Source: Bacteroidia bacterium (GTDB lineage: Bacteria > Bacteroidota > Bacteroidia > Cytophagales > JAAEPT01). Taken from it: 64,000 nucleotides of DNA. The stretch covers positions 1 through 64,000 of the forward strand of contig JAUIJC010000012.1 in NCBI GenBank assembly GCA_030431525.1. The letters run 5' to 3'. Below the pieces are notes generated by a model. That model was not told where the DNA came from, made no database searches, and was given only the letters and a program-made list of their open reading frames with translations. The translations under genes were made by a program, and so were the position numbers. Each line of letters opens with the position of its first letter. Position 1 is the stretch's first letter. Shown piece after piece: positions 19,924-57,767 of the stretch.

Positions 19924-19997
19924 AGTACGGAGTATTGAGTACGGAGTATTGAGCATCAGGCTGGACTTCGTACTCCATACTCTGTACTCAGTACTTG
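19924..19997 (+). repeat. Heptad-repeat hairpin element (GTAC type), GH3-dxr gap
   Basis: The left arm is four 7-bp units, AGTACGG and AGTATTG alternating. Then comes AGCATCA, a loop containing GGCTGGACTT, and a right arm of CGTACTC, CATACTC, TGTACTC and AGTACTT units complementary to the left arm. It starts two bases after the GH3 stop and ends six bases before dxr. Confidence 0.85.
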
Positions 19998-20003
19998 AAA
20001 AAT

Positions 20004-21155
20004 ATGCAACACAAAACCATAGCCATACTCGGTTCAACGGGGTCCATTGGCACCCAAGCCTTGGATGTCGTTCGCAAGAACCCTTCGCTCTATTCCGTTG
20101 AGGTGTTGACAGCCCAGCGCAATGCTGATTTGTTGATTCAACAGGCCTTGGAGTTCTCTCCAAAGGCGGTGGTCATTGGCGATGAATCGAAGTATGCCGA
20201 AGTTTGTGATGCATTGCAAGACAAGGAAATCGAGGTGATGGCCGGAGGCAAGGCCCTTGCTGAGGTTGTCGTTCGTCCTGCGGTGGATGTGGTGTTGACC
20301 GCTTTGGTGGGATATGCGGGCTTGTTGCCGACCATCAAGGCGATTGAGGCTGGAAAGGATATCGCCTTGGCCAACAAGGAAACTTTGGTGGTTGCTGGCG
20401 AGATCATCATGGATTTGGCCCGCAAACAGGGAGTCAAGATTCTACCTGTAGATTCTGAGCATTCCGCCATTTTCCAATGCTTGGTTGGGGAACCTGAGGA
20501 TGGCATTGAGAAAATCATTTTGACGGCTTCTGGGGGACCGTTCCGTGGGAAGGACAGAGCTTACTTGGAGACGGTGACCAAGGCGCAGGCCTTGAAGCAT
20601 CCTAACTGGGAGATGGGTGCTAAAATCACCATTGACTCCGCGACGATGATGAACAAGGGTTTGGAGGTGATTGAGGCCAAGTGGTTGTTCGGATTGGAGC
20701 CTGACCAAATTGGCGTGGTGGTTCACCCGCAGTCCATCGTCCATTCTTTGGTGCAATTCAAGGATTCTTCCATCAAAGCACAGATGGGCTTGCCAGATAT
20801 GCGTTTGCCGATTCAATACGCCTTGACCTATCCTGAGCGCCAGTTCGCTGATTTCCCGCGCTTCAATTTCATCGATTACCCAACCTTGACCTTCGAGCAA
20901 CCAGACATGGAAACCTTCCAGAATTTGAGGTTTGCTTTTGATGCTATGGAAAAGGGGGGTAATATGCCATGTATCCTCAATGCGGCCAACGAGGTTGCCG
21001 TCGACGCCTTCTTGAAGGAGCAAATCAGCTTCTTGGAGATTTCTGATTTTATCGCCGACTGCATGGCCAAGGTGCCTTTCATTGAGCACCCGACTTATGA
21101 GGATTATGTCGAAACCGACGCAGAAACACGTCTTCAGTTATCAGTTATCGGTTAG
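20004..21155 (+). CDS. dxr: 1-deoxy-D-xylulose 5-phosphate reductoisomerase
   Basis: A 383-aa enzyme converting DXP to MEP with NADPH, the first committed step of the MEP isoprenoid pathway. Motifs are GSTGSIGTQALDVV (NADPH), LANKETLVVAGE, PVDSEHSAIFQCL (metal/substrate), ASGGPFRG, and MGAKITIDSATMMNKGLEVIEAKWLF. The ATG at 20004 follows the heptad element. The last six residues (QLSVIG) and the stop are encoded by three heptad units of the next element, replacing the usual C-terminal tail. The core enzyme appears complete. rseP follows. Confidence 0.95.
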   Translation: MQHKTIAILGSTGSIGTQALDVVRKNPSLYSVEVLTAQRNADLLIQQALEFSPKAVVIGDESKYAEVCDALQDKEIEVMAGGKALAEVVVRPAVDVVLTALVGYAGLLPTIKAIEAGKDIALANKETLVVAGEIIMDLARKQGVKILPVDSEHSAIFQCLVGEPEDGIEKIILTASGGPFRGKDRAYLETVTKAQALKHPNWEMGAKITIDSATMMNKGLEVIEAKWLFGLEPDQIGVVVHPQSIVHSLVQFKDSSIKAQMGLPDMRLPIQYALTYPERQFADFPRFNFIDYPTLTFEQPDMETFQNLRFAFDAMEKGGNMPCILNAANEVAVDAFLKEQISFLEISDFIADCMAKVPFIEHPTYEDYVETDAETRLQLSVIG

Positions 21156-21229
21156 CAGTTATCAACAGCGAATTCTGGGCTGTTGACAACTGAAACCTGA
21201 TAACTAATAACTGTTAACTGATAACTGAA
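21135..21229 (+). repeat. Heptad-repeat hairpin element (GTTA type), dxr-rseP gap
   Basis: Units CAGTTAT, CAGTTAT, CGGTTAG and CAGTTAT run into a loop with GGGCTGTTGAC. Complementary units TAACTAA, TAACTGT, TAACTGA and TAACTGA follow. The left end lies inside the dxr reading frame, and the right end is six bases from the rseP GTG start. Confidence 0.85.
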
Positions 21230-21234
21230 TAAAA

Positions 21235-22551: not shown

Positions 22552-24111
22552 ATGATGAAAAAGTTGTACAAATATCTCGTCTTTTCCTTCCTCGGATTGT
22601 TGACTGGTAACCTGTTTGCCATGCCTTTGGATTCCATCGGTGTGGCTAATGTAAATGGCCAGCGACTTATCAAGTATGAGGTTTCCAAAAAGGAAACCCT
22701 GTATCGCATTTCCCGAGATTATGATGTTTCGGTAGATCAGCTCAAGGAGTTGAACCCAGAGCTTGCCGAGGGCTTGAAAGCTGGTCAGGTCATTTTGATT
22801 CCAAGTAGTCAACCCGTTGAACCAGCTCAGGTAGCACCAATCGAGAAACCTGTTGAGGAGGAAACGAACACGGTTCGTTTTGAGACCGCCCAAAGAGAGG
22901 TTACCCATGAAGTGGTAGCAGGAGAAACTTATTATGCGCTATCGCGCAAGTATAATGTTTCGGTGGCACAGCTTCAGGAATGGAACGGTCCCGTGTTGAA
23001 TGCGGGGACAACTGTTGTGGTTGGAAAGGAAGACCTGAAGGTTGAAACCGTTGAGGTGGAGCAACCAAAGACTGAAACTCCTGAGCCAGAACCAAAGGTT
23101 GAGGTTCAAGAGCAGGTAGAAGTTCCTGCTGAAACCCCTAAGGAGCCATCAACGGTGACAGTGACCGAAACTCAGGAAACTGAGGTGCGTCATACACCAA
23201 TCACCGATGCGATTCAGCCAAAAGAAGAGGCTGTGGCTGAAACTCCCAAAGAAGAACCAAAAACTACTCCTAAGGAAGAGCCTGCTCAGGTAGCTGCTAC
23301 TGAACCAAAGGAGGATCCTAAGCCAGAAGTTGAGCCAGAAGCCAGCATCGACGATTGGGAATTTGGCGAGCCATATCCATTTGATGAGTATAGGCAACAG
23401 GTCATTGTCATTCCTTTTGATCCGCACCTTTACTTCTCAGACTGCGACCAAGAAATTGCTAACCAGTCGAAGATTGAGATGCCAGAGGTTCGTCAGGTAT
23501 TCCGTCGTCGTTTGAATGCTTTGCTTGATCCAGAAGGCTATGAAACCATCCATTTGATGGGCGGAAGGTTCCGCGACTCAGATACCTTGGCGGATTTGCA
23601 GAAGGTTTATAAGAACGTTCGCTACAACCTTCAGGAAGTGCTTTACAGTGAGCATTACCTCAAATACAAACAAGAGAAGGAGGAACGTGAGTTGGCTAAT
23701 GATAATTCAATAAAAGGTAGGTTCCGTCGCATGAAAAAGAAGGTGCAACCTACCCAAAGTGAGGATGCTCCTGAGGCCACTTTCACCAGCCGTTACTACG
23801 GTGTTCGTGTGGATAACCCTCGTTTCTTCGAATACTTCCAAGAGAAGTACAGCGCGGACTACTTTATCTTTGTCAGCCAGTTTGAAGTGCAAACCAACTA
23901 CGAGCATTGCTTAGATCGTGCTGCTCAAAACTACGAGCGTACTTTCACGACACACTTTACCATTATGGATAAGAATGGTAACCTCATTGGAGGAAACAAG
24001 TTCCGTGTCCCATACCACTCAAATAACAATAACGTAAAGGCTATTGTTGCTGAGAATATGGGGAAAGTTGCCGAGCGTATTATGTTGGAGTTGCCTCCAG
24101 TAGGAAAGTAA
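22552..24111 (+). CDS. LysM-domain envelope protein
   Basis: A 519-aa exported protein. It has an N-terminal signal segment (YLVFSFLGLLTGNLFA). Two LysM peptidoglycan-binding domains follow (about 40-85, KETLYRISRDYDVSVDQLKELNP, and about 118-160, GETYYALSRKYNVSVAQLQEWN). A 100-residue Glu/Pro/Thr/Val-rich linker leads to a C-terminal domain of about 250 residues that I do not recognise (DVFIP-type VIVIPFDPHLYFSDCDQEI ...). It starts 3 bases after rseP, so it is in the same operon. It probably tethers an activity to the cell wall. Confidence 0.8.
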   Translation: MMKKLYKYLVFSFLGLLTGNLFAMPLDSIGVANVNGQRLIKYEVSKKETLYRISRDYDVSVDQLKELNPELAEGLKAGQVILIPSSQPVEPAQVAPIEKPVEEETNTVRFETAQREVTHEVVAGETYYALSRKYNVSVAQLQEWNGPVLNAGTTVVVGKEDLKVETVEVEQPKTETPEPEPKVEVQEQVEVPAETPKEPSTVTVTETQETEVRHTPITDAIQPKEEAVAETPKEEPKTTPKEEPAQVAATEPKEDPKPEVEPEASIDDWEFGEPYPFDEYRQQVIVIPFDPHLYFSDCDQEIANQSKIEMPEVRQVFRRRLNALLDPEGYETIHLMGGRFRDSDTLADLQKVYKNVRYNLQEVLYSEHYLKYKQEKEERELANDNSIKGRFRRMKKKVQPTQSEDAPEATFTSRYYGVRVDNPRFFEYFQEKYSADYFIFVSQFEVQTNYEHCLDRAAQNYERTFTTHFTIMDKNGNLIGGNKFRVPYHSNNNNVKAIVAENMGKVAERIMLELPPVGK

Positions 24112-24114
24112 TTT

Positions 24115-24205
24115 CAGTTAGCAGTTAGCAGTTAGCAGTTAGCAGTTAGCAGTTAGCAGTTAGCAGTTAGCAGTTAGCAGTTAGCAGTTAGCAGTTAGCA
24201 GTTAA
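24115..24205 (+). repeat. Perfect heptanucleotide tandem array (12 x CAGTTAG plus CAGTTAA)
   Basis: Twelve identical CAGTTAG units run from 24115 to 24198 with a thirteenth, CAGTTAA. They begin three bases after the LysM stop codon. Unlike the other heptad elements it has no complementary arm. The TAG in each unit falls in all three frames. Perfect identity implies recent expansion by slippage. Confidence 0.95.
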
Positions 24206-24208
24206 CGG

Positions 24209-24248
24209 AAAGCCACTGTCAAGCCTTGGGTTTGATAGTGGTTTTTTT
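24209..24248 (+). terminator. Terminator after the LysM gene
   Basis: AAGCCACTGTCAAG pairs imperfectly with TTTGATAGTGGTTTT and is followed by T7. It ends the dxr-rseP-LysM unit. Confidence 0.78.
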
Positions 24249-24295
24249 GTGTCCAATTTTTCGGAAAGGGTTTAGCTTTCTTCGTTAAAGCAATC

Positions 24296-24856
24296 ATGAC
24301 CGAAAAGGAAAAAATGATCGCTGGGCAGTTGTATTTCGCCAATGACCCAGAACTCCTGCGAGAGCGAAATGAAGCCAAATTAATGGCTTACCGACTGAAT
24401 GTTTCGGAGTATGATTTCAATAAAGGTGAGCGCTACAGGAATGTGCTGAATGAACTCTTACCCAATTGTCCATCAGACCTTTTTATAGAACCGCCTTTTT
24501 GGTGTGATTACGGATACAATATCTTTTGTGAGGAGAAGGTGTATTTCAATCACAACTGTTTGATTCTGGATGTTTGTGAGGTTCATATTGGAGCGAACTC
24601 CATGTTTGGTCCGGGTGTGCAGATTTATACGGCGACCCATCCCATTGATGCCGATGAGCGAAGAACGGGGTTGGAGTCAGGGAAGCCGATTACCATTGGC
24701 AGGGATTGTTGGATAGGAGGTGCTGCGATTATCTGTCCTGGTGTGACGATTGGTGACCGCTGTGTTATTGGTGCGGGTAGTGTGGTAACCAAAGATGTGC
24801 CTTCGGATTGTATTGCTGTAGGAAACCCTGCCGTTGTCAAGAAGAAGTTGGCTTAA
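24296..24856 (+). CDS. Maltose/galactoside O-acetyltransferase family enzyme
   Basis: A 186-aa left-handed beta-helix acetyltransferase of the Maa/LacA/NodL family. It shows the MIAGQLYFANDPEL N-terminal domain, then FWCDYGYNIFCEEKVYFNHNC, the catalytic THPIDADER histidine, and hexapeptide turns (IGRDCWIGGAAIICPGVTIGDRCVIGAGSVVTKDVP). It transfers acetyl from acetyl-CoA to a sugar hydroxyl. The substrate is unclear and no sugar operon is adjacent. It is probably monocistronic. Confidence 0.92.
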   Translation: MTEKEKMIAGQLYFANDPELLRERNEAKLMAYRLNVSEYDFNKGERYRNVLNELLPNCPSDLFIEPPFWCDYGYNIFCEEKVYFNHNCLILDVCEVHIGANSMFGPGVQIYTATHPIDADERRTGLESGKPITIGRDCWIGGAAIICPGVTIGDRCVIGAGSVVTKDVPSDCIAVGNPAVVKKKLA

Positions 24857-25792: not shown

Positions 25793-25802
25793 AGAGGTAA
25801 AG

Positions 25803-25870
25803 GGTACGAAGTACCAAGTACCAAGTATGGAGTTACAGGCTGTGTACTCCGTACTCTGTACTTTGTACTC
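25803..25870 (-). repeat. Heptad-repeat hairpin element (GTAC type), ilvB-ACT gap
   Basis: Units GGTACGA, AGTACCA, AGTACCA and AGTATGG, then a loop with CAGGCTGTG, then TGTACTC, CGTACTC, TGTACTT and TGTACTC. On the minus strand its first unit shares bases with the ilvB TGA stop (TGAGTAC). Same architecture as 19924-19997. Confidence 0.85.
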
Positions 25871-27578
25871 ATTCAGGATAATAAAGTGTTTCGCTCAAGC
25901 TGGCTCCCGGAGGAACCATTGGGAATACATTGTCTTCTTTAATGACGCGGGCGTGGATGAGGAAAGGTCCATCATGCAATTCCGCCTCGCGAATGGCGAC
26001 TTTCAAGTCCTCAGCGTTTTCGGCTTTAGCCCATTTGATGCCATAGGATTCGCAGAGCATGCCGTAATCTGGATTGAGCATGTCAACGCCGGAGTAGTTG
26101 CGGTCAAAGAACTGCTCTTGCCACTGGCGCACCATGCCCAAGTAGTTGTTGTCCAACAACAGGATTTTGACGTTCCAGCGCTCCTGAACCAAGGTGATCA
26201 TTTCCTGAAGGTTCATTTGGAAGGAGCCATCCCCTGTAATACACCAGACCGTCTTATTGGGCTGTGCGGCTTGGGCACCCATCGCAGCAGGAAGGCCAAA
26301 GCCCATGGAGCCGAGTCCGCCAGAAGTCAAAAACTCGAACGGCCCGAGCTTTCTCAGGTATTGACCTGCCCACATTTGGTGCTGGCCTACATCCGTAGCC
26401 ACAACCACATTGCCTTTGATGCTCTTGTTCAAAATATCGCAGGCGGTGGCGGTTCCGAAAGTCTCGTGATTTCGACGCTTTAAAGGGTAGTGGTTCCGCA
26501 GTTCCTTGAGTTCATCCACCCACACCTGACGGCGGAAATGACTTGAACGGGTCAAGGTCGTTGGGAACTCCATCAGCATCGTCTTGATATCGCTATGGAG
26601 GAAAACCTTGGTCGGAACATTTTTAGAGCCTTCGCTGTCGTCAATGTCCACGTGAATGATATTGGCGTTAGGCGCAAAGTCCTTCAGACGACCTGTGATT
26701 CGGTCGTCAAAACGAATGCCCATGGCCACAATCACATCGGCTTTTTGTACGGCTTCGTTGGCGTATTTCATGCCGTGCATGCCCAACCAAGAGAAGTACA
26801 AAGGGTCATCGGTAGGCAAAATGCCAATGCCGTGAATCGTCGAAATGGTCGGGATATGCTCCTTGTGAACAAAGCGACGGAAATCTTCAACAGCATCTGA
26901 CAACAAAATGCCGTGTCCAGCAATAATCAACGGGCGCTCCGCTTGTGAAAGCAACTGAACAGCCTTGTCGATGGCCTCTGGGTGGGCATTATAGAAACGA
27001 TGATGGAAGGGCTTGATAAAGTTTTCTTCCCAGTCATCAGCCACTTCAAATTCCTGTTCTTGAATATCCTTTGGAACATCAATCAGCACAGGACCAGGAC
27101 GGCCATTGATACTTAACTCATAAGCCTCGCGGAAAATCTCCTCGGCTTTTGACAAGTCTTTCAGGATCCATGTCTTCTTGGTGAAGGGCATGCAGATTCC
27201 CGTAATGTCCGTCTCTTGGAAGGCGTCGCTACCAATCAAATGACTGGGAACCTGTCCTGTAATGGCCACCATGGGCACGGAATCGCCATAAGCGTCAGCA
27301 ATGCCTGTAACCAAATTGGTGGCGCCAGGGCCAGAAGTAGCCAAACAAAAGCCAGGTTTGTGGGCCTGTGTTCTTGCGTATCCTTGGGCAGCGAAGGCTG
27401 CGGCCTGTTCATGGCGCACCAACACACACTTCAGCGAGGTGTTTGCCAAGGCGTCATAAATCGGAAGGATAGCGCCTCCTGGATAGGCAAACAGGTGTCC
27501 CGCCTCCAACTTTTCGAGAATTCGAACGATATAGTCTGCTCCTCTGAGTTTCACGGAGAGAGGGTTTTTTAGGTACAA
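25869..27578 (-). CDS. ilvB: Acetolactate synthase large subunit
   Basis: A 569-aa ThDP enzyme condensing pyruvate (or 2-ketobutyrate), the first step of branched-chain amino-acid synthesis. Motifs are GAILPIYDAL, the catalytic Glu in VRHEQAAAFAAQGYAR, GPGATNLVTGIADAYGDSVPMVAITGQVP, and the ThDP-Mg motif GDGSFQMNLQEMITLVQERWNVKILLLDNNYLG (given in two parts: GDGSFQMNLQEM and the LDNNYLG end). FAD-binding middle domain present. Paired with the ACT gene downstream; divergent from hisC. The remaining ilv/leu genes are not in the window. Confidence 0.95.
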   Translation of the reverse strand: MYLKNPLSVKLRGADYIVRILEKLEAGHLFAYPGGAILPIYDALANTSLKCVLVRHEQAAAFAAQGYARTQAHKPGFCLATSGPGATNLVTGIADAYGDSVPMVAITGQVPSHLIGSDAFQETDITGICMPFTKKTWILKDLSKAEEIFREAYELSINGRPGPVLIDVPKDIQEQEFEVADDWEENFIKPFHHRFYNAHPEAIDKAVQLLSQAERPLIIAGHGILLSDAVEDFRRFVHKEHIPTISTIHGIGILPTDDPLYFSWLGMHGMKYANEAVQKADVIVAMGIRFDDRITGRLKDFAPNANIIHVDIDDSEGSKNVPTKVFLHSDIKTMLMEFPTTLTRSSHFRRQVWVDELKELRNHYPLKRRNHETFGTATACDILNKSIKGNVVVATDVGQHQMWAGQYLRKLGPFEFLTSGGLGSMGFGLPAAMGAQAAQPNKTVWCITGDGSFQMNLQEMITLVQERWNVKILLLDNNYLGMVRQWQEQFFDRNYSGVDMLNPDYGMLCESYGIKWAKAENAEDLKVAIREAELHDGPFLIHARVIKEDNVFPMVPPGASLSETLYYPE

Positions 27579-53198: not shown

Positions 53199-53713
53199 GA
53201 GAAATAAAGTTATTCATGACTGACGTAGATGGTGTTTGGACCGACGGAGGTATGATATACGATGAAGGGACTGGCAATGAGCTGAAACGGTTTAATGTCA
53301 AGGATGGAGTAGGAGTCATTCTGCTTCGCTCAGCTGATATACCTACCGCAATTTTGACCGGTGAAAACACGGAGATTGTCGCTCGAAGGGCTAGAAAGTT
53401 AAAAATTGACAATTGTTTTCTCGGCGTAAAAAACAAGGTAGCTGTTGCTGAAAAATTGCTGGAACAGTTGGGTATTTCTTGGGAAGAAACGGCCTTTATC
53501 GGGGATGAAATAAATGACATTTCCATCATCAAAAAAGTTGGTTTAAGCGCTTGTCCCTCTGATGCGGCGGGCTATGTAAAGGATATTGTGGATGTGGTCT
53601 TGACAAAAAAAGGTGGAGAAGGCGCTTTTAAGGAGTTTGTTGAATTCTACTTTATGGAGCGTGGTGAGCTTGACCAAGTGGTAGACAAAGTGGTTGAGGA
53701 GATGAATGTTTGA
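53195..53713 (+). CDS. KdsC-like HAD phosphatase
   Basis: A 172-aa HAD enzyme of the KDO/KDN 8-/9-phosphate phosphatase type: motif I FMTDVDGVWTDGGMIYD (nucleophile and acid Asp), LLRSADIPTAILTGENTEI, KNKVAVAEKL (motif III Lys) and FIGDEINDISIIKKVGLSACP (motif IV). It dephosphorylates nonulosonate or KDO phosphates. No KdsA/KdsB or NeuB homologue is in the window, so the sugar acid is unknown. ATGA overlap with the preceding glycosyltransferase. The gene is followed at once by a heptad hairpin. Confidence 0.85.
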   Translation: MREIKLFMTDVDGVWTDGGMIYDEGTGNELKRFNVKDGVGVILLRSADIPTAILTGENTEIVARRARKLKIDNCFLGVKNKVAVAEKLLEQLGISWEETAFIGDEINDISIIKKVGLSACPSDAAGYVKDIVDVVLTKKGGEGAFKEFVEFYFMERGELDQVVDKVVEEMNV

Positions 53714-53809
53714 TTGAGTATTGAGTATTGAGTCCAGAGTACGGAGTCTTCCCATATTGAATGGTTCCTTACTCAAAACTCGCTACTTAGTACTCAGTAC
53801 TTAGTACTG
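53714..53809 (+). repeat. Heptad-repeat hairpin element (GTAC type), KdsC-YfhO gap
   Basis: Units AGTATTG, AGTATTG, AGTCCAG and AGTACGG, a central CCCATATTGAATGG loop, and complementary ACTTAGT/ACTCAGT units. It begins right after the KdsC-like TGA stop and ends three bases before the YfhO ATG. Confidence 0.83.
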
Positions 53810-53812
53810 AAA

Positions 53813-56209
53813 ATGAAAAAAGAAACTTTAATCAAGTCGTTGATTGCCTTGGTCGTTTTTATGGCGGTCACGGCCATATACTTTTATCCACAGGTTTTTG
53901 AAGGCAAGGGTGTAGCTTCACATGATATTGCCATGTGGAAAGGGGCAGCTAAGGAAATTATTGATTTCCGGGAGGAGCATGGAGAAGAGCCATTATGGAC
54001 TAACTCGATGTTCAGCGGTATGCCTGCCTATACAATATCGACTAGATATGATAGTAACTTGATAGGCTACCTTAAAAGGGGCTTAGGGCTTGGGTTGCCA
54101 CATCCTGCATCTACATTTTTTATAGCCTTCCTATCATTCTTTGTGTTAATGAGGTGTTTTAAGGTCAAACCCCTTGTCGGAATGGTTGCGGCTCTTGGGT
54201 TTGGCTTGGCTTCCTTCATGCCCATTAGTATTGCGGCTGGGCATAATTCAAAGGTAATGGCCATTGCCTTAGGACCATTGTTGTTGGCTGGGGTTCATCT
54301 GATTTATGAGAGAAAATATCTCCTAGGTTTTGCTCTAGCAGCATTGGGGATTTCCCTGGAGTTGGTGGCTGGTCACCCACAGATTACCTACTATTATGGG
54401 CTTTTGATTTTAGCCTATGCAATTTTCCGTTTAGTTGATTATTTAAAAGAGAATCTACTCCCAGAATTTTTCAAGGCTTCAGTTATAGCCTTGTTGGCAG
54501 GTGCCTTGGGATTCATGCCGAGTGTTGCGCAGCTGTGGACTACGATGGAATACAGCAAATATTCCACACGAGGAAAGTCTGAATTGCAGCAAACGGTTCA
54601 GGAAGGTGATGCCGAAGATGGTCTTGGCCGTGATTATGTGTTTAAATGGAGTCAAGGATCTTGGGAAAATTTGACTTGGATGATTCCTTATTTTCAGGGA
54701 GGTGCCAGTGTAGATTATGTGAAGAAGGGTTCTGATTCTTATCAATGGTTTCAGCAACGTGGCTATCCTGAGGAGCAGATTCTGCAGCAGCGTCTTCCAT
54801 ATTACTGGGGAACGCAGCCATTCACGGCTGGGCCAATCTATATGGGAGCAGTGATTTGTTTCCTCTTTTTTGTAGGAGCATTCTTTGTCGAGGGACGCAT
54901 CAAGTGGTGGTTGGTCGCTGGAGTTGTGTTGTCACTATTGTTGTCAATGGGTAAGAACTTCCCGTTGTTCAACAATTTGATGTATGATTACTTCCCGATG
55001 TACAACAAGTTCCGAACAGTGGCCATGTCCGTGATGATTGCGCAGGTGAGCTTGGCGATATTGGCAGGACTTGGCCTTCAGGCGATTCTTCATGGGGAGC
55101 TTAGAAAAGATTGGCAGAACCGCCTCTTGATCGCTTTTGGCTGTTCGGGTGGATTGGCAATTCTTGTGCTCCTTTTCGCTCAGGTATTTGCTGACTTTGC
55201 AGGGCAGGGTGATGCAGGGATGATTCAGCAAGCTCCAGGTTTGGTCGAGGCGCTTAGGGCAGATCGAGCGGCAATGTTGACCTCTTCGGCTTTCCGTTCA
55301 TTCTTCTTGATTCTGTTGGCTGCTAGTGCACTTTGGGCTTATTTGAAGTTTAATATGAAGCCTATGGTTGCTTCGGCAATTTTGGCTGCCTTGGTGGTTT
55401 TTGACCTTTGGGGTGTTGATTGGAGCTATCTGAATCAAGATAACTTCAAAGAGAATGCGATTGATAGTCAACTGAATCCTTCGCCGGCGGATCAGGTGAT
55501 TTTGAAAGATGCCAAAGGCAAAGAGGGTACATATCGTGTGTTTAACGCGAACAATCCTTTTAACGAGGCTAATACTTCTTATTATCATCAATCCATAGGA
55601 GGGTATTCTGGCGCTAAGATTCGTCGTTATCAAGAATTGGTGGAGAATCAGCTTTCCACAGGAAACCAGCAGGTGTTGGCCATGCTTAACACCAAATATG
55701 TGGTGACGCCTCAGGGGAGGTTAAGTAAATTCCCTGGCTTGGGGAATGCTTGGTTTGTGAACAAGGTGGAACAAGTCGGTTCGCCTGATGATGAGTTGGA
55801 CTTTTTGGGTACCAAAGATTTCAAGGCTTCCCAAGTAGCAGTAATTGATACTACCAAATTTGATGCGAAGCCTGATTATTCTTTGAATGGTTCTGAAAAC
55901 ATCAAGTTGTTGGATTACCAGCCAAATGCTCTGAAATACCAAACTAAGAATGCTAAGGAAGGCTTGGCTGTATTCTCCGAAATCTACTATCCAGCTGGAT
56001 GGAAGGCAACGATTGATGGTTTACCTGTCGAAATCAAGCGTGTGAACTACGTTTTGCGTGCCTTGGAAATTCCAGAAGGTGATCACACCGTGGAGTTCAA
56101 GTTTGAACCGCGCTCTTACCACCTTGGCAGCACGATTTCCTTAATAGGGTCCATTTTGGTGCTAGGTATCTTTGGTTTGGCTGTGTTTATGGAGGTAAAG
56201 AAGAAATGA
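53813..56209 (+). CDS. YfhO-family membrane protein
   Basis: A 798-aa polytopic protein with about a dozen N-terminal helices (LIALVVFMAVTAIYFYP, FIAFLSFFVLMRCFKV, LGFMPSVAQLWTT etc.) and a large soluble C-terminal domain. It ends in IYYPAGWKATIDGLPVEIKR, VNYVLRALEIPEGDHTVEFK and a final helix. This is the YfhO/GT-C-like architecture, in which lipid-linked sugars are used to glycosylate cell-wall polymers. Preceded and followed by heptad hairpins and sits directly before a flippase. Confidence 0.87.
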   Translation: MKKETLIKSLIALVVFMAVTAIYFYPQVFEGKGVASHDIAMWKGAAKEIIDFREEHGEEPLWTNSMFSGMPAYTISTRYDSNLIGYLKRGLGLGLPHPASTFFIAFLSFFVLMRCFKVKPLVGMVAALGFGLASFMPISIAAGHNSKVMAIALGPLLLAGVHLIYERKYLLGFALAALGISLELVAGHPQITYYYGLLILAYAIFRLVDYLKENLLPEFFKASVIALLAGALGFMPSVAQLWTTMEYSKYSTRGKSELQQTVQEGDAEDGLGRDYVFKWSQGSWENLTWMIPYFQGGASVDYVKKGSDSYQWFQQRGYPEEQILQQRLPYYWGTQPFTAGPIYMGAVICFLFFVGAFFVEGRIKWWLVAGVVLSLLLSMGKNFPLFNNLMYDYFPMYNKFRTVAMSVMIAQVSLAILAGLGLQAILHGELRKDWQNRLLIAFGCSGGLAILVLLFAQVFADFAGQGDAGMIQQAPGLVEALRADRAAMLTSSAFRSFFLILLAASALWAYLKFNMKPMVASAILAALVVFDLWGVDWSYLNQDNFKENAIDSQLNPSPADQVILKDAKGKEGTYRVFNANNPFNEANTSYYHQSIGGYSGAKIRRYQELVENQLSTGNQQVLAMLNTKYVVTPQGRLSKFPGLGNAWFVNKVEQVGSPDDELDFLGTKDFKASQVAVIDTTKFDAKPDYSLNGSENIKLLDYQPNALKYQTKNAKEGLAVFSEIYYPAGWKATIDGLPVEIKRVNYVLRALEIPEGDHTVEFKFEPRSYHLGSTISLIGSILVLGIFGLAVFMEVKKK

Positions 56210-56276
56210 GTACCAAGTATCAAGTAGAGAGTACCAAGCTATGAGCTGGACTTGATACTTGGTACTCTCTACTTGA
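56209..56276 (+). repeat. Heptad-repeat hairpin element (GTAC type), YfhO-flippase gap
   Basis: Units AGTACCA, AGTATCA, AGTAGAG and AGTACCA, a loop with GAGCTGGACTT, then GATACTT, GGTACTC and TCTACTT. The A of the YfhO TGA stop is the first base of the first unit. It ends seven bases before the flippase ATG. Confidence 0.85.
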
Positions 56277-56282
56277 TGCCTA

Positions 56283-57767
56283 ATGGGAATCATCCAACGC
56301 AAAGGATTTGTCACCACATTGGTTATCTACTTGGGCGTCGCCTTGGGATACATCAATGTGGTGATGCTTTTTCCAAAGTATTTTACGCCCGAGGATCTTG
56401 GGCTCCGTTCCACTTTGGTTGATTTCGCTACTTTGGTGAGTCAGTTAGCCATGTTTGGGTTTACTGGGGTCTTGCTGAAGTTTTTCCCTCATTTTCGGGA
56501 TAAGGAAACGAAGGAGAGAAGTGCCTTTGTGTGGATTGGTCTCCTGATTCCTTTGTTGGCTTTTTCGGTTTTGGCTGTCTTGATATTTTTCTTTCAAGAC
56601 CTCATCAAGGGAGAGTATATTGAGAAGGCTCCAGCCTTTGTAGAGTACTTCTACTTGGTTTTTCCTTTGATTCTGTTCATAACGTTCAACACCCTTTTGG
56701 ATGCACATTGTCGGAATTTGATGCATACAGTCTATTCCAATTTCTTGAGGGAAGTAGTCTTGCGCATCAACTTCTTCTTGCTGATTGTGTTGGTAGCAGT
56801 GGATGTGCTGACCAAACATCAGTTTTGGTTGGGATTAGTGGCTACTTATGGATTGAATACTATGTTGCTTTTAGGGTTTGTGATGTGGAAGGAGCGGATG
56901 TTTGTCCGCCCCAACTTTTCTGTTGTAGGCCCAATGCTTAAGACGGATATCCTTTCCTTTGCTCTATTCACTCTTGTCAGCGGTACTGCAACAGTTCTTG
57001 TTTTCAAGATTGATTCCCTGATGATTTCAGGGATTGTGGACCTTGAGGGAAATGGGATATATACCATGGCCTTATTTATTGCAACCTTGGTAGAGATTCC
57101 TCGCAGGGCTTTGATTCAGGTTGCATCTCCTATGCTTAGTGCGGCATTTCAGGAAGAGGATATGGATAAGGTAGAGGAGATTTATAAAAAAATGTCTATT
57201 AACCTGTTGCTGGCAGGTGGTTTTGTGATGGGGGGTATCTGCTTGAGCTTGGAAGATATTTATTCCTTGATACCAAATGGGGAACGCTTCGCTTCTGGCT
57301 TTTGGGTGGCTGTGCTTATTAGCGGTGCCAAGTTGTTGGATATGCTTTTTAGCACCAACAATGAGTTGATTGTCTATTCAAAATACTATAAGTATAATCT
57401 TTATTTCCTATTGTTTTTAATGGTGTGTGCCATTGGCTCCAATTACCTGTTCATTTCAGCCCTAGGTATCACTGGTGCGGCAGGCGCAACATTGCTGTCC
57501 TTTCTGCTGTTCAACCTGGTAAAGTGGTATTTTATCAAGAATCGAATGGGGTTTTCCCCTTTTGGAAAATCAACTATAAAGGCTTTTGCAGTGCTTGGCT
57601 TATCGGCAATTACGGCCTATTATCTACCTGCCCAAGGATTCCCTCTGTTAGATATCCTGATGAGATCTGTTGTTTTTACCCTGATTTTGGGTGTCCTAAT
57701 CTATTTTGGAAATGTTTCTGAAGATGTCAATCAGCTTGTTTCCAAGTTTTTCAGGAAAAGTAAATAA
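56283..57767 (+). CDS. Polysaccharide flippase (Wzx/MATE-like)
   Basis: A 494-aa membrane protein with about 12-14 helices of the polysaccharide-biosynthesis/MVF superfamily: LGVALGYINVVMLFPKYFTPEDLGL, FVSGTATVLVFKIDSLMIS-type central helices, and GITGAAGATLLSFLLFNLVKW (typical of Wzx). It moves undecaprenyl-linked oligosaccharides across the inner membrane. It follows YfhO and precedes a convergent glycosyltransferase gene. Confidence 0.88.
   Translation: MGIIQRKGFVTTLVIYLGVALGYINVVMLFPKYFTPEDLGLRSTLVDFATLVSQLAMFGFTGVLLKFFPHFRDKETKERSAFVWIGLLIPLLAFSVLAVLIFFFQDLIKGEYIEKAPAFVEYFYLVFPLILFITFNTLLDAHCRNLMHTVYSNFLREVVLRINFFLLIVLVAVDVLTKHQFWLGLVATYGLNTMLLLGFVMWKERMFVRPNFSVVGPMLKTDILSFALFTLVSGTATVLVFKIDSLMISGIVDLEGNGIYTMALFIATLVEIPRRALIQVASPMLSAAFQEEDMDKVEEIYKKMSINLLLAGGFVMGGICLSLEDIYSLIPNGERFASGFWVAVLISGAKLLDMLFSTNNELIVYSKYYKYNLYFLLFLMVCAIGSNYLFISALGITGAAGATLLSFLLFNLVKWYFIKNRMGFSPFGKSTIKAFAVLGLSAITAYYLPAQGFPLLDILMRSVVFTLILGVLIYFGNVSEDVNQLVSKFFRKSK

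Follow-up and report, generated by a model that had tools for sequence, protein, structure and literature searches.

A one-sided CAGTTAG heptanucleotide array between a stop codon and a terminator-like hairpin in a Bacteroidia genome, probably grown by replication slippage

Heptanucleotides have been described as the most frequent class of long repeats in bacteria, and slippage at a polymerase contacting seven bases has been proposed as their possible origin (Mrazek 2007, as cited in PMC4679880 and PMC4692102). The TAACTGA repeats of Beggiatoaceae, Cyanobacteria and five Bacteroidetes are intergenic, reach up to 43 copies and have no predicted secondary structure; in the main genome of that study the sets lie mostly just ahead of start codons, and one set in Flexibacter litoralis directly follows a stop codon (MacGregor 2015, PMC4679880). 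The GGGNATC heptamers of Xanthomonas and Nostoc are likewise intergenic, lie on the sense strand at most 50 bp from a stop codon and sometimes overlap it. Convergent pairs of them form inverted repeats, their lengths differ at orthologous loci, and no link to mobile elements was seen (Rehm 2015, PMC4692102). The STRR heptanucleotides of Calothrix and other cyanobacteria are tandem repeats located between genes (as cited in PMC4692102). A search of the literature on relatives of Cytophaga for tandem 7-bp repeats accompanied by hairpins returned nothing.

The window, by which we mean the whole stretch of 64,000 nucleotides that was analysed, contains twelve perfect copies of CAGTTAG (24115-24198, forward strand) and a last variant unit, CAGTTAA (24199-24205). 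They are separated by three bases, TTT (24112-24114), from the TAA stop (24109-24111) of a forward-strand gene (22552-24111) encoding a 519-residue protein with two LysM domains (PF01476, E 3e-19 in a domain search). TRF reports 12.9 copies at 100% match with a score of 180, by far the top score in the window, and together with the sequence itself bears out the composition and position given in the preliminary description. An intrinsic-terminator-like hairpin with a T run (CGGAAAGCCACTGTCAAGCC-TTG-GGTTTGATAGTGGTTTTTTT, -25.3 kcal/mol), which a simple consensus scan missed, lies directly 3' of the array (24206-24250, forward strand), and the array fills the spacer from stop to terminator almost exactly. 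The next start codon is 90 nt downstream and belongs to a gene in the same direction (24296-24856, forward strand) for a 186-residue hexapeptide-repeat acetyltransferase of the Maa/Mac type. A scan of 23900-24500 found no promoter-like sites. The array is a direct repeat and has no GGG. NTAACTG heptads form no run in the stretch from the array to the next gene (24296) or farther 3' within the window, and a concealed return arm downstream was therefore rejected. The claim that the complementary arm is missing thus holds for the DNA, where there is no NTAACTG run, but not for the RNA, which is predicted to fold on itself.

We suggest that the array is probably a one-sided heptanucleotide simple-sequence repeat that slippage has grown in the tolerant 3' untranslated spacer behind the LysM gene. 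The source genome already has heptads of the CAGTTAN family at many gene ends, and a short seed of this kind would recently have been extended and made uniform as strands slipped during replication. The product would be tolerated because nothing else depends on the spacer, with coding sequence as its left boundary and the terminator as its right. Slippage products forming perfect DNA palindromes, as CAGTTAA does, would be lost. The following observations support this reading: the perfect identity of the twelve copies, the dominance of period 7, the whole-unit differences between orthologous arrays, the start of arrays at stop codons in one orientation, the terminator-like hairpins behind some of these arrays, the lack of (CAGTTAA)4 in the order and the absence of heptads after most LysM homologues. 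Nine of the ten homologues in the order have no heptads past the stop; the tenth (L040, G003:C1) has degenerate CAGTCGG heptads with an apparent return arm right past its stop, a different flavour. Inheritance of the array along with the LysM gene was rejected on these grounds.

Copy number was compared at orthologous loci in other species, where it differs by whole units: 6, 5 and 6 in Psychrobacter, 9 in Marinifilum breve as against 12 in a relative, 7 and 5 in Gillisia, 9 and 12 in Christiangramia, and 7 and 10 in Mesonia. The flanks of orthologous arrays in close species are up to 91-97% identical. The earlier proposal of slippage and length variation is made plausible by these loci, and the constant copy number in relatives that had been named as its refutation was not seen. 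Growth by replication slippage in the stop-terminator spacer is, from the sequence, the most likely history of the array. The sequence, the position, the orientation rule, the copy-number differences in other species and the absence of the palindromic unit variant are observed; slippage as the process, its recency and the lack of a dedicated function are what we infer.

The surrounding genome (4.24 Mb in 75 contigs) is rich in related repeats. In a sample of 845 kb, taken in stretches and amounting to a fifth of the genome, we found 83 seven-periodic runs and at most nine for each of the other periods from 5 to 15, leaving aside 14. None of the 83 falls within an ORF as called by a simple longest-ORF script, in agreement with the mostly intergenic location of long simple sequence repeats (LSSRs). 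These are defined as tandem units of 5-11 bases longer than chance, a description that the array fits through its perfect match over 12.9 copies and through the period-7 excess. Allowing up to three mismatches, (CAGTTAG)3 has 144 matches in the source genome and its reversed control none; the array is far beyond chance. Most of the seven-periodic runs are degenerate (CAGTTAN, GAGTACN, TTAGACN and AAGTATC-like heptads) and are laid out as two complementary arms, left and right, around a loop, the whole spanning the gap between two genes. The window holds one such element of the array's own family (CAGTTAN arm, loop, NTAACTG arm; 21127-21232, forward strand) and one of another flavour (GAGTACN/NGTACTC; 19924-19998, forward strand). 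Further two-armed elements occur in the window at 25795-25874, 53705-53814 and 56209-56285. Each of the window's two-armed elements, whether CAGTTAN, GAGTACN or AAGTATC-like, spans a gene-gene gap with its outer ends at gene boundaries. CAGTTAN and TTAGACN arms stand in left-right order in all 28 pairs of the sampled genome and in right-left order in none. The arms within CAGTTAN elements match no better (0.863) than arms shuffled between elements (0.872), and the free seventh base is therefore not kept complementary; the idea that the two arms are copies of each other was rejected on the same figures.

The sample has six perfect CAGTTAG-type arrays, of about 13, 5, 11 (CAGGTAG), 4, 5 and 13 units; all six are sense-oriented, with starts from -3 to +3 nt relative to a stop codon. 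Two of them sit in two-armed elements in which a single arm is expanded: at 64.7 kb of contig C17 a right arm of 13 CTAACTG units faces degenerate left arms, and at 29.4 kb of C29 a left arm of about 10-11 CAGGTAG units faces a degenerate right arm. The suggestion that the window array is a freshly expanded left arm agrees with these elements, and on that reading the array is a left arm that has expanded but has no partner. The companion suggestion, that it is an ancestor of the two-armed elements, finds no support, the one-sided form being the usual one elsewhere: when arrays with and without a return arm are counted in other genomes, one of 65 has such an arm within 600 nt and 64 do not.

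The same elements bear on the view that the array belongs to a small mobile or REP-like family, normally seen as two-armed heptad hairpins, of which it would be a lone survivor or a one-sided member. The strict order of CAGTTAN-loop-NTAACTG elements (28 of 28), the several heptad flavours and the position and orientation of the window array, which are those of a left arm, would all suit such a family. We nevertheless consider it quite improbable, since the array has no remnant of a return arm, one-sidedness is the rule elsewhere, the three Y1 transposase genes of the source genome have no heptads nearby, 2.9 million viral contigs gave no matches, and the seventh base varies independently between the arms, unlike in copies of one mobile unit. 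A link to Y1/RAYT transposases was rejected on the absence of heptads near the Y1_Tnp genes, and spread by phages on the absence of any exact four-copy CAGTTAG array from the viral contigs. Longer REP-like palindromes (AACCGCCCTTACAGGGC...GCCCTGTAAGGGCGGTT) lie between both heptad arms, as if inserted in the loop, at two loci (L077 17520-17842 on C29; L079 10364-10628 on C46). At C17:33711-34853 (L062 13711-14853) two small ORFs of unknown kind (165 and 110 residues) are enclosed between a left arm, which follows the stop of one gene, and a right arm about 1.1 kb away, which precedes the next conserved gene.

A scan of one genome per species with five exact units, which biases the set towards arrays of at least five copies, gave at least 114 stretches, 80 of them listed. 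Among the matches listed, exact CAGTTAG arrays span about ten phyla as assigned from the record titles, several records being MAGs: Bacteroidota, Balneolota, Gammaproteobacteria, Planctomycetota, Cyanobacteria, Chloroflexota, Myxococcota, Spirochaetota, Actinomycetota and a Doudnabacteria MAG. Removal of contig edges and related loci from the matches listed left 65 arrays with genes on both sides, as called by the longest-ORF script, whose placement was compared with uniform placement within the same gap. Where a stop codon lies on the 5' side (CAGTTAG strand), 32 of 44 arrays start at most 12 nt from it (5.9 expected), compared with two of 37 where a stop codon lies on the 3' (antisense) side. 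The 5' side is the nearer in 18 of 19 gaps between convergent genes (p = 7.6e-5), in 23 of 25 between two forward genes and in 11 of 18, which is not significant, where both genes are on the other strand. Perfect arrays near the CAGTTAG arrays in these genomes are 154 of period 7 vs three of period 8 and one of period 4; of the 154, 119 are the search bait and 35 are other heptamers, which are also intergenic and several of which start at stop codons. Some of these (GGAAAGT, GAAAGGT, GGTAGTT, AGATTTC) share or adjoin the gaps of CAGTTAG arrays (L123, L125, L127, L163, L129, L175, L192), several starting at the facing gene's stop codon. In three flavobacterial-type genomes the same gene is followed at its end by CAGTTAG arrays of 7, at least 17 and 8 units (L086, L129 and L160); their flanks are just 72-79% identical, which suggests that the arrays either have persisted for long or arose more than once at this site.

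The stop codons themselves suggest another function, in which the unit, giving a TAG in every frame each 21 nt, would catch read-through or frameshifted ribosomes. TAG precedes 26 of the 32 stop-adjacent arrays (baseline TAG use, 32%), and in 18 of the 32 the gene's stop is the repeat unit's own TAG. The gene in the window has a separate TAA, however, the CAGTTAT unit is placed alike yet has no stop in the sense frames, and genes that end on the unit's TAG may simply have had their old stop overrun by the array; we judge this function very improbable. That the array is an artefact of assembly is scarcely credible: the source genome is a draft in 75 contigs and other arrays are often at contig ends, but 91 bp is shorter than ordinary reads, and similar arrays lie inside long contigs of many independent genomes.

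The transcribed array (24115-24205, forward strand) is predicted to form a self-hairpin in which GUUAGC blocks pair with each other (G-C, U-G, U-A, A-U, G-U, C-G), with two G-U wobbles per block and one A-A mismatch per unit. The calculated energies are -34 kcal/mol for the RNA, about -4 for the DNA and -11.5 for the antisense RNA; the RNA has a z of -9.85, and none of 200 shuffles is equally stable. The hairpin could, as a side effect of slippage growth, slow 3'-to-5' decay, and on this prediction a role of the array in stabilising mRNA is possible. A stronger version would make the array a functional 3'UTR RNA element, in which the (CAGUUAG)n self-fold and the terminator hairpin protect the 3' end of the mRNA or reinforce termination and copy number tunes the effect. 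The fold of the sense RNA, which the DNA and the antisense RNA approach only weakly, would be expected of such an element, as would the sense orientation past stops and the position sometimes ahead of terminators. We think it unlikely. Any self-complementary unit scores a good z when repeated, and the reversed unit GATTGAC folds too, yet arrays of GATTGAC were not found. Terminator-like hairpins follow five (strict) or seven (relaxed) of the 32 stop-adjacent arrays (0.2 in shuffles) and none of the 21 arrays with a start codon on their 5' side; 25 of the 32 thus have no detected terminator, and a universal terminator 3' of the arrays was rejected.

The unit variant CAGTTAT also speaks against the 3'UTR element. 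CAGTTAT arrays are common in the order and have no predicted fold, but at eight of 20 loci they start 1-7 nt past a stop in the orientation of CAGTTAG, and at six of 20 they precede, by 2-8 nt, the start codon of a gene on the opposite strand. Because these non-folding arrays obey the same rule, the RNA fold does not explain position or orientation, and self-folding was rejected as the general cause of orientation; several other heptamer arrays that abut stops have no fold either. Expansion driven by G-skew or R-loops was dropped, as G does not outnumber C in CAGTTAT. The core of CAGTTAA, GTTAAC, is a true palindrome, and twelve such units fold as DNA (-22 and -27 on the two strands). (CAGTTAA)4 occurs in none of 390 genomes of the order and (CAGTTAG)4 in seven, an absence that fits the loss of long DNA palindromes. 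One could go further and regard post-stop CAGTTAG arrays across phyla as hairpins of the RNA only: the unit is palindromic just with G-U pairs, and the direct repeat would escape loss as a DNA cruciform while offering a 3'-end stem of tunable length that adjusts the stability of the upstream mRNA. We regard this wider proposal, which builds on predicted folds, as rather unlikely.

We therefore return to slippage in the spacer, noting that slippage alone gives no account of the 7-base unit, of the recurrence of the word in unrelated phyla or of the one-way starts at stops. Taken alone, the array is an ordinary heptamer repeat, and its interest lies in a wider rule, of which it is an example. 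In many phyla one and the same 7-base word starts at stops, runs outward from the gene and lacks a return arm; its copy number shifts between close species, and its sole true DNA-palindrome variant is absent. If the rule is confirmed with proper annotation, the long-noted excess of 7-base repeats in bacteria becomes testable, with some mutational or selective process required to work at the ends of genes in one fixed direction.

Compared with known systems, the array differs from REP/BIME elements (dispersed single imperfect palindromes of about 20-40 nt with a RAYT gene) in being a direct repeat without a stable DNA hairpin. It differs from contingency loci, whose repeats lie in a reading frame or promoter, in its location between a stop codon and a terminator-like hairpin with no promoter-like site. 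The Mrazek survey is general and, as cited in PMC4679880 and PMC4692102, has no stop-codon rule or CAGTTAG unit; the STRR repeats of Calothrix, as cited, are tandem intergenic heptads like the array with other unit sequences. The array shares with GGGNATC the sense strand and the proximity to the stop (three bases, within the 50 bp reported), whereas GGGNATC is G-rich and capable of forming G-quadruplexes and CAGTTAG has no G tracts, let alone the four or more tracts of at least three G that Rehm's criterion demands. TAACTGA is of the same heptad family as CAGTTAG, being the complement of CAGTTAT with a shifted start; the window unit read on that strand is CTAACTG, one base different. TAACTGA sets lie mostly before starts in MacGregor's main genome and the window array after a stop, but the post-stop set of Flexibacter litoralis shares the orientation of the window array. 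The array belongs to this already known class of heptamer repeats (MacGregor 2015; Rehm 2015).
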